From the NCBI GenBank assembly GCA_016927425.1, contig JAFGMR010000001.1, positions 1 to 60,523 of the forward strand: a stretch of 60,523 nucleotides of DNA, given 5' to 3'. Position 1 is the stretch's first letter, and the number at the start of each line of letters is the position of its first letter. Shown in pieces: positions 54,175 to 60,093 of the stretch. The position numbers were made by a program, and so were the translations under genes. The notes under the pieces were generated by a model, which saw only the letters and a program-made list of their open reading frames with translations, was not told where the DNA came from and searched no databases. This stretch comes from Methanotrichaceae archaeon (lineage in GTDB: Archaea > Halobacteriota > Methanosarcinia > Methanotrichales > Methanotrichaceae).

Positions 54175-54971
54175 CAGGCCCGGCGATATGATCCCAGCAC
54201 CTTGACCATCGACGATTCCCGGCGTACCTCGTCCAGAGCTGCCTTCACATGTGGGTCGTCCTTATGCCCCTCCAGATCGATGAAGAAGTAATAGTCCCCA
54301 AGCCCGAGCCTGCTCGGCCTCGACTCGATCCTAGTTAGGTTGATCTCCTTAAGCGCTCCAAGCATTGAGTATAGGGCGCCGGGGCGATCCCTCTCCAGAT
54401 GGACAACCAAGGATGTCTTGTCCCTTCCAGTTGGTGCCGGCCCATCTAGGCCCACAAAGGCGAAGCGTGTCATGTTATTTGGCGAGTCCTGGATGTCGCG
54501 TTCGATTACATTGAGGTTGTACCTAGTTGCAGCATCCTCGCCGGCGATTGCTGCCATCTCCTGGAACTCCTGGGCAAGCTTTGCCGCGTGGCTGGTCGAC
54601 CCCGTGCTCCTAAGCTCCGCTTTGGGATACTTCCTTCGCAGGTACTGCCTGCACTGGGCGAGGCCCTGCGGATGAGAGAGCACGATCTTGATCCCGGAAG
54701 GCTCTCCCTTTCCAAGGAGGCAGTGGCGAATGGGCTCGATTGCCTCCCCCACGATCTGCACCCGAGAGCTGATCAGAAGGTCCATGGAAGGCCCAACCCC
54801 GCCCTCCAGGCTGTTCTCCAGGGGGATGACACCAATCTCTGCATCCCCCCTCTCCACAGCGAGGACGATCTCCTCGAAGCCGGGAAGGTAGAGAGGCGAG
54901 CAGCCAGGATGGGACCTCCTCGCCGCCTTCTCCGAGTAGCTGCCCTCAGGCCCCAGAACGGCGATTTTCAA
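54174..54971 (-). CDS. pheA: Prephenate dehydratase
   Basis: The 265-residue enzyme converts prephenate to phenylpyruvate, the phenylalanine branch. MKIAVLGPEGSYSEKAA, VIPLENSLEGGVG and the catalytic NNMTRFAFVG are present in the N-terminal domain. The C-terminal ACT domain has LTRIESRPSRLGLGDYYFF, the allosteric phenylalanine-binding ESRP. It has no fused chorismate mutase; that enzyme is encoded at 26,956. It overlaps the HMG-CoA reductase gene by four bases, an unusual functional pairing. Confidence 0.95.
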   Translation of the reverse strand: MKIAVLGPEGSYSEKAARRSHPGCSPLYLPGFEEIVLAVERGDAEIGVIPLENSLEGGVGPSMDLLISSRVQIVGEAIEPIRHCLLGKGEPSGIKIVLSHPQGLAQCRQYLRRKYPKAELRSTGSTSHAAKLAQEFQEMAAIAGEDAATRYNLNVIERDIQDSPNNMTRFAFVGLDGPAPTGRDKTSLVVHLERDRPGALYSMLGALKEINLTRIESRPSRLGLGDYYFFIDLEGHKDDPHVKAALDEVRRESSMVKVLGSYRRA

Positions 54972-56221
54972 GATGCCTCTCTTTGGAGCTCCTCGGCTCG
55001 CTCCTGGCTGATCCTTCCCTCTGCGATCATCTTCTTTGCGATCGCATCTATCATATCCCCGCGAGCTCCGGCCTGGACCGCAAGGTTTCGGGCATGAAGG
55101 GACATATGCCCCCTTTGAATACCCTCGGTGGCCAGAGCCCTCAACGCTGCGAAGTTTTGCGAGAGGCCGACCGCGGCGATGATGCGGCTTAGATCGTCCG
55201 CCGTCGAGACGCCCAGGACCTTGACCACGGCCTTTGCCACTGGGTGCACCCTGGTTGCCCCCCCCACAAGCCCTACCGCTACGGGAAGCTCGATCGTTCC
55301 CACGAGATCGCCGTTGGATCCGATCTCATAGTGGGTGAGGGATCGATATTGCCCGTCCCTGCAGGCGTAGGCGTGAGCCCCTGCCTCGACCGCCCGGGTA
55401 TCGTTCCCCGTTGCCATTACGGCCGCTGTGATGCCGTTCATTATGCCCTTGTTGTGGGTTGCGGCCCTATACGGATCCACCTCGGCGAGGGCTGCCGCGG
55501 CGACTATTGCCTTTGCGACGTCCAGTCCCCCGATCTCCTCGGAGGGAAAGACCGCCCGGGCCCTTGCCAGGCGCAGATCTGCCAGGTTTGAGATTATGCG
55601 AAGGAAGACCTTGCCGCCTGTGATCTCCTCGATTCGAGGGGCCAGGGCCTCGGCCATGGTGTTGACGGCGTTTGCCCCCATTGCGTCGCGACAGTCCACT
55701 ATGAGATGGGCGACGACCATTGGTCCGACCCTGGAGTCAAAGATATGAACCTCGATTCCCAGGGCTCCGCCGCCGTACTTGACGAGCATCGGATCCTTCT
55801 CGTTTGCCATCGCCTTGAGCTCTTCTGCCCTCTCGAGGATCGCCATCTTCGCACCGAATGGATCGCTCAACCCGGTCACCTGGATCTGTGCCCGCATCAC
55901 AGGCCCAGTCGAGGACGTGGTGAATCCGCCCCCGCTTCTCGCCATCCTGGCTCCGTTGCTGGCCGCGGCGATGACCGATGGCTCCTCAGTGGCCATCGGG
56001 ACGACCACATCCCTGCCGTCGATGAGAAAGCCAGTCGCAACGCCAAGCGGCACCTGAAAGAGGCCGACAACGTTCTCGACCATCCTATCGGCCTCACCGA
56101 GCGAGAGGGCCGCACCTGCGAGCTCGGTTATCTCGGCTTTCAAGCCGGTCATCAGGGCGATTGCGTCGAGCCTCTCCTCGGGAGAGAGACGATAGAGTCC
56201 AGGGATTCGGGATGTCTTCAA
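54968..56221 (-). CDS. hmgA: Hydroxymethylglutaryl-CoA reductase, class II
   Basis: The 417-residue enzyme makes mevalonate for archaeal isoprenoid lipids. Its start MKTSRIPGLYRLSPEERLDA and the overall length are those of class II (bacterial/Archaeoglobus-type) reductases, not of the class I enzyme of many archaea. Catalytic residues are seen: Glu49 in VENVVG, Lys in THNKGIMNG, Asp in VDCRDAMGANAVN, and the C-terminal His in HMSLHARN. Cofactor preference (NADH or NADPH) is not told by sequence reading. Together with pheA it forms a two-gene operon divergent from the RFAP synthase gene, with a 76-base shared promoter region. Confidence 0.93.
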   Translation of the reverse strand: MKTSRIPGLYRLSPEERLDAIALMTGLKAEITELAGAALSLGEADRMVENVVGLFQVPLGVATGFLIDGRDVVVPMATEEPSVIAAASNGARMARSGGGFTTSSTGPVMRAQIQVTGLSDPFGAKMAILERAEELKAMANEKDPMLVKYGGGALGIEVHIFDSRVGPMVVAHLIVDCRDAMGANAVNTMAEALAPRIEEITGGKVFLRIISNLADLRLARARAVFPSEEIGGLDVAKAIVAAAALAEVDPYRAATHNKGIMNGITAAVMATGNDTRAVEAGAHAYACRDGQYRSLTHYEIGSNGDLVGTIELPVAVGLVGGATRVHPVAKAVVKVLGVSTADDLSRIIAAVGLSQNFAALRALATEGIQRGHMSLHARNLAVQAGARGDMIDAIAKKMIAEGRISQERAEELQREAS

Positions 56222-56297: not shown

Positions 56298-57845
56298 ATG
56301 CCAGAGCCATCATCCCAGTCGTCAGAGCCCGAGATCTCGAAGCGAATAGCCGCCCTCGAGATGGCGCTCGGCCGTCTGAGCCCCGTTCAGAGGATGCTTC
56401 TTGGAACCGACGGATCGGTAACCGGACTTCTCGAGGTTATCACCGGAAACCCGGTCGAGGTGAAGACACTCCATCAATTGGTCGTCCCGGCAGATGGCGA
56501 TATGGCAGATGAGCTCCAGATCGATTTGGGCGATCCGGTAAACCACAGAATCGTTGCCCTGAAAGACTCCGTTAAAGGCGAGGTCCTCATCCACGCCGAG
56601 TCCTTCACACCCTTGAAGAGGCTCGAAGCGAGCTTCAAAGACGATCTGATGAGGGCCGATATTCCGATTGGTGCGATATTGAAGAGGCATCGGATCGAGT
56701 CTCGCAGGGATATAATGGATGCCGTATGCATCCCCGCCAATGATCGCTTCAGCGACGTATTTCCCGTATTTCCTAAGGAGATGATGCTCTCTCGGCGCTA
56801 CAAGATCATCCGAGGGGGATCGCCGCTCATATCGATTACAGAGACCTTTCCCCTCAACGAGTTCAGGGATAAGAGCCGAGTTATTGTAGAGACGCCTTCA
56901 CGCATTCACCTTACGCTGACCGATCTCAGCGGGGAATCCGGTCGCGTCGACGGCGGCATCGGCATCGCGCTTGACCATCCCAATGTCGTCCTGGAAGGAG
57001 AGGTCGCATCCGATCTCGCCGTGGATGGCGATCATGCGGAGAGGGTCGAGGCGGCCGCAAGGGCAGTTATGGATCGCTTCGGCCTTCCGCCTGCTCGCCT
57101 CACAGTTCGAAGCGCCTACAAAGTCCACGTCGGCCTCGGCGGTGGAACGCAGCTCGCAATGGCAGCTGGAAAGGCGCTCTGCGAGCTGTACGGACATCCG
57201 GCGAGTACGCGGGAGATCGCATCTGCGGTCGGTCGAGGGGGCACGAGCGGGATTGGGGCGGCCGCCTTCGAAGGGGGAGGCTTCATCGTCGACGGCGGCC
57301 ATACCTTCGGTCCCGCCGGCCAGAAGACGGACTTTCGCCCCTCATCTGCCTCGCATGGCGTGGACCCCCCTTCGGTGATCGCCCGCCATGAATTTCCCAG
57401 TCACTGGGAGATCGTCCTTGCCATTCCGAGCATTTCGAGGGGAGCTCACGGCCGAAAGGAGCTGGATATCTTCAAAGAGTACTGCCCGGTTCCCCTGGCC
57501 GACGTCCAGGAGCTCTGTCGCCAGATCCTGGTGTGCATGATGCCATCTCTAGTCGAGGAGGATCTCGACGCCTTCGGCGACGCCGTAAACCGCATCCAGG
57601 GTCTCGGATTCAAGAGGGTGGAGTTGATGCTCCAGCATCCCCTGATCCACGCGCTGATGGAGGCGATGGGAGAAGCCGGAGCAGCCTGTACCGGCCTCTC
57701 CTCCTTTGGGCCGACGGTCTACGCCATAGGCGACTCCGGAATGAGGAATATCGAGGCAGCTGCTAGGGAGTGCATGGAGCCTGTTGGCGGGGATCTGGTG
57801 CTTACGAGGTGCAGGAACTGGGGCGCCCGCGTGCGCACAACGTAG
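56298..57845 (+). CDS. Fusion: chorismate-lyase-like domain plus beta-RFAP synthase (methanopterin)
   Basis: The 515-residue protein has two parts. Residues about 15-180 resemble chorismate pyruvate-lyase/DUF98 (SPVQRMLLGTDGSVTGLLEV, then LSRRYKIIRGGSPLISITETFP), which would yield 4-hydroxybenzoate. From about 195 it is beta-ribofuranosyl(amino)benzene 5'-phosphate synthase, a GHMP-superfamily enzyme: VETPSRIHLTLTDLSGESGR, VHVGLGGGTQLAMAAGKAL and GRGGTSGIGAAAFEGGGFIV. That enzyme joins PRPP to the aromatic acid in methanopterin synthesis. The fusion would channel the aromatic precursor. The ATG at 56298 directly follows a TATA-containing region. Confidence 0.85.
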   Translation: MPEPSSQSSEPEISKRIAALEMALGRLSPVQRMLLGTDGSVTGLLEVITGNPVEVKTLHQLVVPADGDMADELQIDLGDPVNHRIVALKDSVKGEVLIHAESFTPLKRLEASFKDDLMRADIPIGAILKRHRIESRRDIMDAVCIPANDRFSDVFPVFPKEMMLSRRYKIIRGGSPLISITETFPLNEFRDKSRVIVETPSRIHLTLTDLSGESGRVDGGIGIALDHPNVVLEGEVASDLAVDGDHAERVEAAARAVMDRFGLPPARLTVRSAYKVHVGLGGGTQLAMAAGKALCELYGHPASTREIASAVGRGGTSGIGAAAFEGGGFIVDGGHTFGPAGQKTDFRPSSASHGVDPPSVIARHEFPSHWEIVLAIPSISRGAHGRKELDIFKEYCPVPLADVQELCRQILVCMMPSLVEEDLDAFGDAVNRIQGLGFKRVELMLQHPLIHALMEAMGEAGAACTGLSSFGPTVYAIGDSGMRNIEAAARECMEPVGGDLVLTRCRNWGARVRTT

Positions 57846-57887
57846 AACCCCTCCCTTTAAGATGGAGTGGCTCTAAAGGTCTGCCGC

Positions 57888-58943
57888 ATGAAAGAGATCG
57901 CATCATTGCTTGAGCGGCTCAGCAACGCTCATGGGATATCCGGAAGGGAGGGCTCGGTCCAGAAACTGGTCGAGGAGGAGATCGCTCCTCTCGTCGACGT
58001 GGTGAGGATCGACTCCCTGGGCAACCTGATCGGGATCAAGAGGGGAGAGGCCCCGTCAATCATGATTGCTGCCCATTCGGACGAGATAGGCCTCATGGCG
58101 AAGTACGTCGACGAGAAGGGGTTCGTCCGCTTCGTAAAGATCGGGGGCTGGTTCGATCAGACCCTGCTCAACCAGCGGGTGATACTGCATTCGAAGAAAG
58201 GCCCCGTTGTCGGCGTGATAGGATCGAAGCCCCCCCATGTCATGAAGGATGAGGACAAGAAGAAGCCAGTCGATGCGAAGGATATGTTCATCGACGTAGG
58301 CGGAAAGAGCGAGGCCGAGGTCGAGGAGATGGGCATAATCCCAGGAACCCCCATATCGATAGACCGAACCTTCTCCCCTCTTGGCGGGGATAGGGTCACC
58401 GGAAAGGCCTTCGACAATAGGGCCGGGCTTGTCTTGATGATCGAGGCGCTTCGCCGAACCAAGAGCACGTCTACCATCTACGCCGTCGGAACCGTGATGG
58501 AGGAGGTCGGGCTGAAAGGGGCAAAGACCAGCGCCTTTGGGCTCGAGCCCGACCTCGCCATCGCAACCGACGTAACCATCCCAGGCGACCATCCAGGCAT
58601 AGAGAAGAAGGACTCAGCGCTCGAGATGGGAAAGGGTCCGGTCATAACCGTGGCTGACGCCTCGGGCCGCGGGCTTATCGCTTCACAGGACGTCATTGAC
58701 TGGCTCGTCGAGACCGCGGAGGAGTTCAATATACCCTACCAGCTCGACGTCTCCGGCGGAGGGACTACGGACGCAACATCCATACAGCTTACGAGGGCGG
58801 GAGTAAAGGTCGGCCTGATCAGCATTGCAACGAGGTACATCCACTCACCAGTCGAGGTGCTGAGCCTCGAGGACCTCGACAAGAGCGCCGAGTTGATCGC
58901 ACGGGCGCTCGATACCGCGTCTCGCCACTTCAAGCCATCTTGA
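57888..58943 (+). CDS. M42-family metallo-aminopeptidase
   Basis: The product has 351 residues from the ATG at 57888 (MKEIASLLERLSNAHGISG). Metal ligands and catalytic residues are in MIAAHSDEIGLM, GKAFDNRAG, TVMEEVGLKGA, IATDVT and near the end ATRYIHSPVE. Such enzymes (FrvX/TET type) form tetrahedral 12-mers that trim peptides. Cytoplasmic. A single gene, probably expressed with the upstream synthase (42 bases apart). Confidence 0.93.
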   Translation: MKEIASLLERLSNAHGISGREGSVQKLVEEEIAPLVDVVRIDSLGNLIGIKRGEAPSIMIAAHSDEIGLMAKYVDEKGFVRFVKIGGWFDQTLLNQRVILHSKKGPVVGVIGSKPPHVMKDEDKKKPVDAKDMFIDVGGKSEAEVEEMGIIPGTPISIDRTFSPLGGDRVTGKAFDNRAGLVLMIEALRRTKSTSTIYAVGTVMEEVGLKGAKTSAFGLEPDLAIATDVTIPGDHPGIEKKDSALEMGKGPVITVADASGRGLIASQDVIDWLVETAEEFNIPYQLDVSGGGTTDATSIQLTRAGVKVGLISIATRYIHSPVEVLSLEDLDKSAELIARALDTASRHFKPS

Positions 58944-59066: not shown

Positions 59067-59384
59067 TCAATCGTTCCGTGAAGCGATATGCTTTCCAACC
59101 ACGTATAAGAGCCCGCCGCAGATGACGACGCCGAGCAGGGCGGAGATGTAGTAGGCAAGCGCCGCTCCCTTGAACGACTCATCTCCTGGGAATGCGTAGT
59201 CGGGAATCGGGGCGCTCCATGTTGAGGATAGATCATCGAGCCCCTGAGGTATGAAGCCTATCTTCTCCTCGAGATCCTCGTTCCCCCACTCCCCGAAGGT
59301 CTCCCCCGTGGATAGAAGGCCTAGTGGCACGAGTATCATCAGTATCACAAGGCCGATGAACATATTTCTGATCGCCTTCTCCAT
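59067..59384 (-). CDS. PDGLE-domain subunit of cobalt/nickel ECF transporter (CbiN/NikN-like)
   Basis: The 105-residue membrane protein has an N-terminal span (MFIGLVILMILVPLGLL), an outside loop with DLEEKIGFIPQGLDD and ending in PDYAFPG, and a C-terminal span (AAYYISALLGVVICGG-like). This is the PDGLE/NikN layout that accompanies CbiM/NikM. Its start is one base after the CbiM stop. Confidence 0.85.
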   Translation of the reverse strand: MEKAIRNMFIGLVILMILVPLGLLSTGETFGEWGNEDLEEKIGFIPQGLDDLSSTWSAPIPDYAFPGDESFKGAALAYYISALLGVVICGGLLYVVGKHIASRND

Positions 59385-59385
59385 T

Positions 59386-60093
59386 TCATCGCCTCATATG
59401 CGTAGACGCCCTCTTCATTGCCCCCATCTTGAGCAATGTGGGGTCAGCCTTCTGGATGTATGCCAGAATCAATGCGGTAACTACAGCCTCAACGAAGCCG
59501 AAGAAGAGCAGATGCTCGCCGAGCATTGCAGTCATAGTCACTTCGAGCCCATAGGGCATGTAGAGGGGAGTTCCTGCTGCGTCGTGCTCGAGGATCGGCT
59601 GGATTCCGAACAAAAATCCAACGAAGGCTGCCGCGATGTTCAAGGAGATATATCCGGCAGCGGCAGCCGCCAGTATGCGGCGAGAGGATGTAACTTCCGA
59701 TCTTCCGCTGATGATCCTGTAGATGTAGTAGGCCGAAGTAGGTATTATGACCGACATGGAAAAGCAGTTTGCGGCAATTGCAGTCACTCCGCCATCACCG
59801 AACATAAGCGACTGGAGTATGAGCGCAACCGATATGGCAATGACGCCTGCCCAAGGTCCAAGCACTATTCCCACTATCGCTCCGCCAACGGCATGGCCTG
59901 AGCTCCCTCCGGGTATTGGCATGTTGAACATCATTATTACAAATGAGAACGCCGCGGCCAGCGCAAGCAGAGGCACCTGCCTGCTCCTCAGCTCCTTATT
60001 AAGCCGCATTCCCGCGTAGATCCAGATAGGGATCATTATTATCCACATGGCGATGTAGGTGGTCGGCCCGATGTAGCCGTCCGGTATATGCAT
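59386..60093 (-). CDS. cbiM: Metal-binding S component CbiM/NikM of cobalt/nickel ECF transporter
   Basis: The 235-residue membrane protein begins MHIPDGYIG, in which the amino group, His2 and a His loop coordinate the metal. Internal MPIPGGSSGHAVGGAIVGIVLGP carries the other conserved His. About six to seven membrane segments follow. Cobalt versus nickel cannot be told. The coupling and ATPase genes lie at 28.5-30.3 kb, so the transporter is split. A GGTGAT ribosome site precedes the start. Confidence 0.92.
   Translation of the reverse strand: MHIPDGYIGPTTYIAMWIIMIPIWIYAGMRLNKELRSRQVPLLALAAAFSFVIMMFNMPIPGGSSGHAVGGAIVGIVLGPWAGVIAISVALILQSLMFGDGGVTAIAANCFSMSVIIPTSAYYIYRIISGRSEVTSSRRILAAAAAGYISLNIAAAFVGFLFGIQPILEHDAAGTPLYMPYGLEVTMTAMLGEHLLFFGFVEAVVTALILAYIQKADPTLLKMGAMKRASTHMRR

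Follow-up and report, generated by a model that had tools for sequence, protein, structure and literature searches.

The two parts of the protein described here are already known as enzymes, and 4-hydroxybenzoate has already been reported as a precursor of methanopterin in Methanocaldococcus jannaschii. According to White 2011, as cited in PMC3261824, this organism makes a 4-hydroxybenzoate-derived beta-RFH-P, which PurB converts to beta-RFA-P by way of an N-succinyl intermediate. The closest described relatives of one half are the beta-RFAP synthases (NF040726/TIGR00144), including MJ1427, AF2089 and MTH0830, all of them single-domain proteins where characterised. RFAP synthases accept p-aminobenzoate in vitro, and mutagenesis of MTH0830 showed an effect of R26 on the binding of p-aminobenzoate and a loss of activity in D19A (PMC6787355). 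ForT, the C-ribosyltransferase of formycin synthesis, is a PRPP enzyme of the same family that works in antibiotic synthesis and has no lyase domain. The other half belongs with the Rv2949c-like (type 2, DUF98) chorismate lyases, represented structurally by AF1396 (PDB 2nwi), and shares a fold superfamily with UbiC of E. coli (PF04345), whose reaction is predicted for this half as well.

Two domains in one open reading frame

In the window, the whole 60,523-nucleotide stretch of Methanotrichaceae DNA that was analysed, a single open reading frame with an ATG start and no internal stops encodes one intact protein in which a lyase-type domain is followed by a beta-RFAP synthase (Table 1). The protein is 61-68% identical to full-length relatives, and because the same two-domain match is found in 36 of the 37 genomes of the family, the fused gene is not an assembly joint. 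An earlier note made from the letters alone had described a fusion of these two domains at this position, and the Pfam, NCBIfam and PDB matches bear this out for both halves.

Table 1. Coordinates in the window of the fused gene, its domains, selected residues and adjoining genes
Feature	Position	Strand	Details
Fused gene, chorismate-lyase-like domain plus beta-RFAP (RFH-P) synthase	56298..57845	+	515 aa
N-terminal PF01947 (Rv2949c-like, DUF98) chorismate lyase domain	56376..56870	+	Residues 27-191; Pfam, 2nwi match, AlphaFold model
C-terminal beta-RFAP synthase domain (GHMP fold, PRPP-dependent)	56880..57836	+	Residues 195-513
Arg84 of lyase domain	56547..56549	+	Invariant; aligned to E. coli UbiC Arg76
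Glu182 of lyase domain	56841..56843	+	Invariant across 50 lyase domains; possible counterpart of UbiC Glu155, from which it is offset by one alignment column
Asp209...Arg216 of synthase half	56922..56945	+	Counterparts of MTH0830 D19/R26 (aromatic-acid binding)
HMG-CoA reductase, divergent upstream neighbour (context only)	54968..56221	-	PF00368
M42 aminopeptidase family gene, downstream neighbour (context only)	57867..58943	+	PF05343

The synthase half, the C-terminal 320 residues, matches the beta-RFAP synthase equivalog NF040726 at residues 196-511 with 385.3 bits against a cut-off of 328, and Pfam recognises both GHMP kinase-fold domains. Asp209 and Arg216 are spaced seven residues apart, as are D19 and R26 of MTH0830; the arginine is present in 36 of 36 fused proteins and the aspartate in 33, with glutamate in the other three. 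The glycine-rich PRPP loops GLGGGT and GRGGTSGIG are also present, and this half is thus what the earlier note had taken it for. In a sequence search of the PDB, ForT with bound PRPP (6yqq) matches the C-terminal part (E 3.5e-35). An AlphaFold2 model built from the alignment of the 36 fused proteins (mean pLDDT 89.7, pTM 0.85) was searched with Foldseek; ForT (6yqq, 8ap0 and 8aoz; E 1.4e-26 to 5.8e-25) is the best structural match of the synthase half, with TM-scores of 0.86-0.87 by target length, and AF1396 matches the lyase half with a TM-score of 0.94 and an rmsd of 1.6-1.7. Unlike the characterised single-domain synthases, the protein carries an added N-terminal domain almost without a linker, the final lyase strand ending at residue 185 of the model and the first synthase strand starting at 194.

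We consider it very probable that the fused protein is a bifunctional chorismate lyase and 4-hydroxybenzoate ribosyltransferase that covers the first two dedicated steps of the methanopterin aryl arm. The N-terminal domain would convert chorismate to 4-hydroxybenzoate and pyruvate, the synthase half would join 4-hydroxybenzoate with PRPP in the first committed step of methanopterin synthesis, and the hydroxyl would later be exchanged for an amine by separate enzymes; both activities and their order are predicted from homology. A lyase-synthase fusion is what the beta-RFH-P chemistry of M. jannaschii predicts, and it supports 4-hydroxybenzoate, and not p-aminobenzoate, as the acceptor outside Methanocaldococcus. 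It also serves as Rosetta-stone evidence linking the type-2 lyase of methanogens to methanopterin synthesis as its supplier, and offers a single gene for assaying the two predicted activities jointly.

Toward the end of the window (59067-60093, minus strand) lie two genes that, from their translations alone, resemble the cobalt transporter parts CbiN and CbiM.

Fold and conserved residues of the lyase half

PF01947 (Chorismate pyruvate-lyase Rv2949c-like) covers residues 35-186 with 97.1 bits (E 1.2e-27) against a Pfam cut-off of 22, and the NCBIfam model for cyanobacterial chorismate lyase, NF037993, gives a sub-threshold match to the fused protein (40 bits, E 3.3e-10). A sequence search of the PDB aligns AF1396 with residues 27-191 (E 2.8e-40). 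Over the N-terminal 165 residues the two are 46% identical in the fold search and share the same invariant residues; unlike AF1396, the domain here is joined to the predicted consumer of its product.

Two residues of UbiC, Arg76 and Glu155, we take to be in the active site of the E. coli enzyme. Neither Arg84 nor Glu182 of the present protein varies among 36 fused proteins or among 50 lyase domains that include separate copies as well as fused ones. The signature PIG...E.RR...R.Y is equally constant in both sets, and D38-G39-S40, P123, G125, E134, R136, R137, R166 and Y168 are likewise invariant across the lyase domains. Arg84 aligns with UbiC Arg76 in a profile comparison, which is a weak one (probability 9%), and again in a multiple alignment that includes distant members from Halorussus and Mesobacillus. 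In each of these two alignments Glu182 is displaced by one column from UbiC Glu155, an offset that a one-residue shift near the end of a strand would explain. The earlier note's proposal of an N-terminal chorismate-lyase-like domain is thus upheld by the family match, AF1396 and the conserved residues. It had named a missing active-site arginine or glutamate as evidence against lyase activity; the arginine is in place, and the glutamate is invariant but one column from its UbiC counterpart in the sequence alignments.

Modelled alone, the lyase domain reaches a pLDDT of 90.9, and its best fold match is again AF1396 (TM-score 0.94 by target length). The UTRA effector domains of GntR regulators, which have a chorismate-lyase-like fold, rank next, and UbiC is absent from the top 50 fold matches. 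The fold of the model by itself cannot tell a lyase from the related UTRA sensor domains, and the N-terminal domain could accordingly be read as a ligand sensor, controlling the synthase in response to bound chorismate or 4-hydroxybenzoate, with no catalysis of its own. We regard this as improbable. Pfam does give a UTRA match, but at 13.4 bits it lies far under the cut-off of 23.8, whereas PF01947 scores 97 bits, and the fused protein has no GntR DNA-binding domain. Furthermore, some 20 residues besides Arg84 and Glu182 show no variation whether the domain is fused or free-standing, and free-standing single-domain copies exist in many genomes. A sensor would also leave this genome with no other recognised source of 4-hydroxybenzoate: it holds one PF01947 gene, and, unlike the case in E. 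coli, which served as a detected positive control, a search of the whole genome for UbiC (PF04345) gave no match. Residue conservation and gene context therefore favour a lyase.

Distribution and history of the fusion

Public genomes show the fusion architecture plainly. Scanning genome contigs with the full-length single sequence gave no match, and an alignment-based scan then found 80 named loci; these best 80 are all fused, and belong to taxa that include Methanothrix/Methanosaeta, Methanoculleus, Methanoregula, Methanolinea, Methanogenium and Ca. Methanolliviera. Within the Methanotrichaceae, 36 of 37 genomes (the window's own counted) carry the fusion, nearly all as a single open frame; one copy is cut at a contig end (G006), another is split near the C terminus (G030), and G024 is the sole genome lacking it. 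In an even draw of the phylum, PF01947 is present in 157 of 295 genomes and the fusion in at least 54, counted as open frames with PF01947 that span no fewer than 500 residues; wherever one of these loci was read, the synthase followed the lyase. Methanosarcina acetivorans, too, has a PF01947 gene. No relatives of the lyase were found in viral contigs. The survey of methanogens that the earlier note called for finds fused genes beyond the family, and the note's phrase "this lineage" was too narrow, as the architecture extends from Methanotrichaceae to Methanomicrobiales and Ca. Methanolliviera. A literature search on the fusion or on methanogen chorismate lyases, mostly outside subscription journals, returned no paper describing the fusion, so a description elsewhere is possible.

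Other members of the phylum keep the two activities apart. They are two separate genes in class-mates from family f3, in Archaeoglobus and in others. Where the genes are unfused in family f5, 6 of 6 loci seen have both on one strand, with the synthase as the gene directly preceding the lyase, and in one further genome (G037) the two are divergent neighbours.

In trees of either domain, which are quick trees with limited internal support, the fused sequences group together and two changes of state are needed. The AU test does not reject a synthase tree in which all fused rows form a single clade (p 0.69), and without this constraint they share a clade with two unfused rows of genus g78 (96% SH-aLRT), whose genomes show no detectable lyase. 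A synthase tree that unites the window's family with its class-mates is rejected (p 5.5e-5). The trees fit a single fusion event, after which g78 may have lost the lyase half, combined with either differential loss and replacement or a transfer, in one direction or the other, between Methanotrichaceae and Methanomicrobiales. The fusion may bring a kinetic benefit, for instance by easing product inhibition or by the channelling that the earlier note suggested, in which 4-hydroxybenzoate would pass straight to the synthase. The fuller scenario, in which hand-over from lyase to synthase eases product inhibition and dedicates chorismate to methanopterin synthesis in two orders of methanogens sharing one fusion event that moved between lineages, we put forward only tentatively, as it is rather unlikely to hold in all its parts.

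Source of the aromatic acid

Across the phylum draw the synthase is found in 156 of 157 lyase-positive genomes versus 47 of 138 lyase-negative ones (Fisher p 2e-39, a value that ignores kinship), and the only lyase-positive genome without it is 78% complete. For this comparison a threshold of E 1e-90 defined the synthase class and gave 203 genomes, compared with 199 at the curated cut-off. Nothing informative came from the pterin-binding family PF00809. The near-constant company of lyase and synthase argues against the idea that the lyase product serves another compound, quinone or methanophenazine-like, and that the fusion merely couples expression. A distant PF01947 relative in Halorussus does adjoin a monooxygenase and a MenA/UbiA-type prenyltransferase gene, but lyase and synthase are paired by fusion or adjacency in several families, and fusion is the rule in Methanomicrobiales, a group that to our knowledge lacks methanophenazine. 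We therefore give this idea very little weight.

No genome among the 295 contains pabB over the curated cut-off, an absence that is suggestive, the cut-off being bacterial in origin. The present genome has a single TrpE/PabB-like gene, which falls below that cut-off, and haloarchaea, which use folate, mostly have three. It is hence most improbable that the lyase half is degenerate or of other activity and that the synthase takes p-aminobenzoate from elsewhere: p-aminobenzoate was the substrate used in characterising the synthase family (PMC6787355), but no PabB clears the cut-off and the strict conservation of the lyase residues speaks against a degenerate domain. The gene context, the co-occurrence of lyase and synthase, and the lack of UbiC and of any recognisable dedicated PabB all indicate that the acceptor is 4-hydroxybenzoate produced in situ. 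The preference for 4-hydroxybenzoate over p-aminobenzoate expressed in the earlier note agrees with this, although the precursor itself is not new, having been reported for M. jannaschii.

The PF01947 lyase is not universally needed, because 47 genomes of the draw have a canonical synthase and no detectable PF01947; these presumably obtain the aromatic acid otherwise. The genome comparison singles out methanogens without the lyase, or without both parts, in which another solution to this step is needed. A canonical synthase with neither PF01947 nor pabB over the cut-off is seen in our families f12 (G068, G086), f15, f19, f9, f26 and f30 and in parts of f7 and f8. Thirteen genomes, namely G109, G181, G142, G138, G146, G162, G234, G253, G283, G197, G243 and G297 (f14, f6, f25, f24, f17) together with G024 (f1), have neither the lyase domain nor a synthase over the NF040726 cut-off; they are essentially complete and have retained Mtd (PF01993), which is linked to H4MPT. 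Methanopterin synthesis in these genomes seems to lack its canonical committing enzyme, so one would expect either a substitute for it or a route of uptake.

Two further loci were observed in passing. The genome of the window encodes a second, divergent beta-RFAP-synthase-like GHMP protein (L003, G000:C1, 403-1491, plus strand) that scores 86-93 bits, below the cut-offs, and is 26% identical; similar weak GHMP matches occur in many relatives and in haloarchaea without methanopterin. On a plasmid of Halorussus caseinilyticus (L207, 2938-4784 and 4866-5822), the distant PF01947-type gene stands beside an FAD monooxygenase and the MenA/UbiA-type prenyltransferase, and this locus possibly makes a prenylated product derived from 4-hydroxybenzoate.
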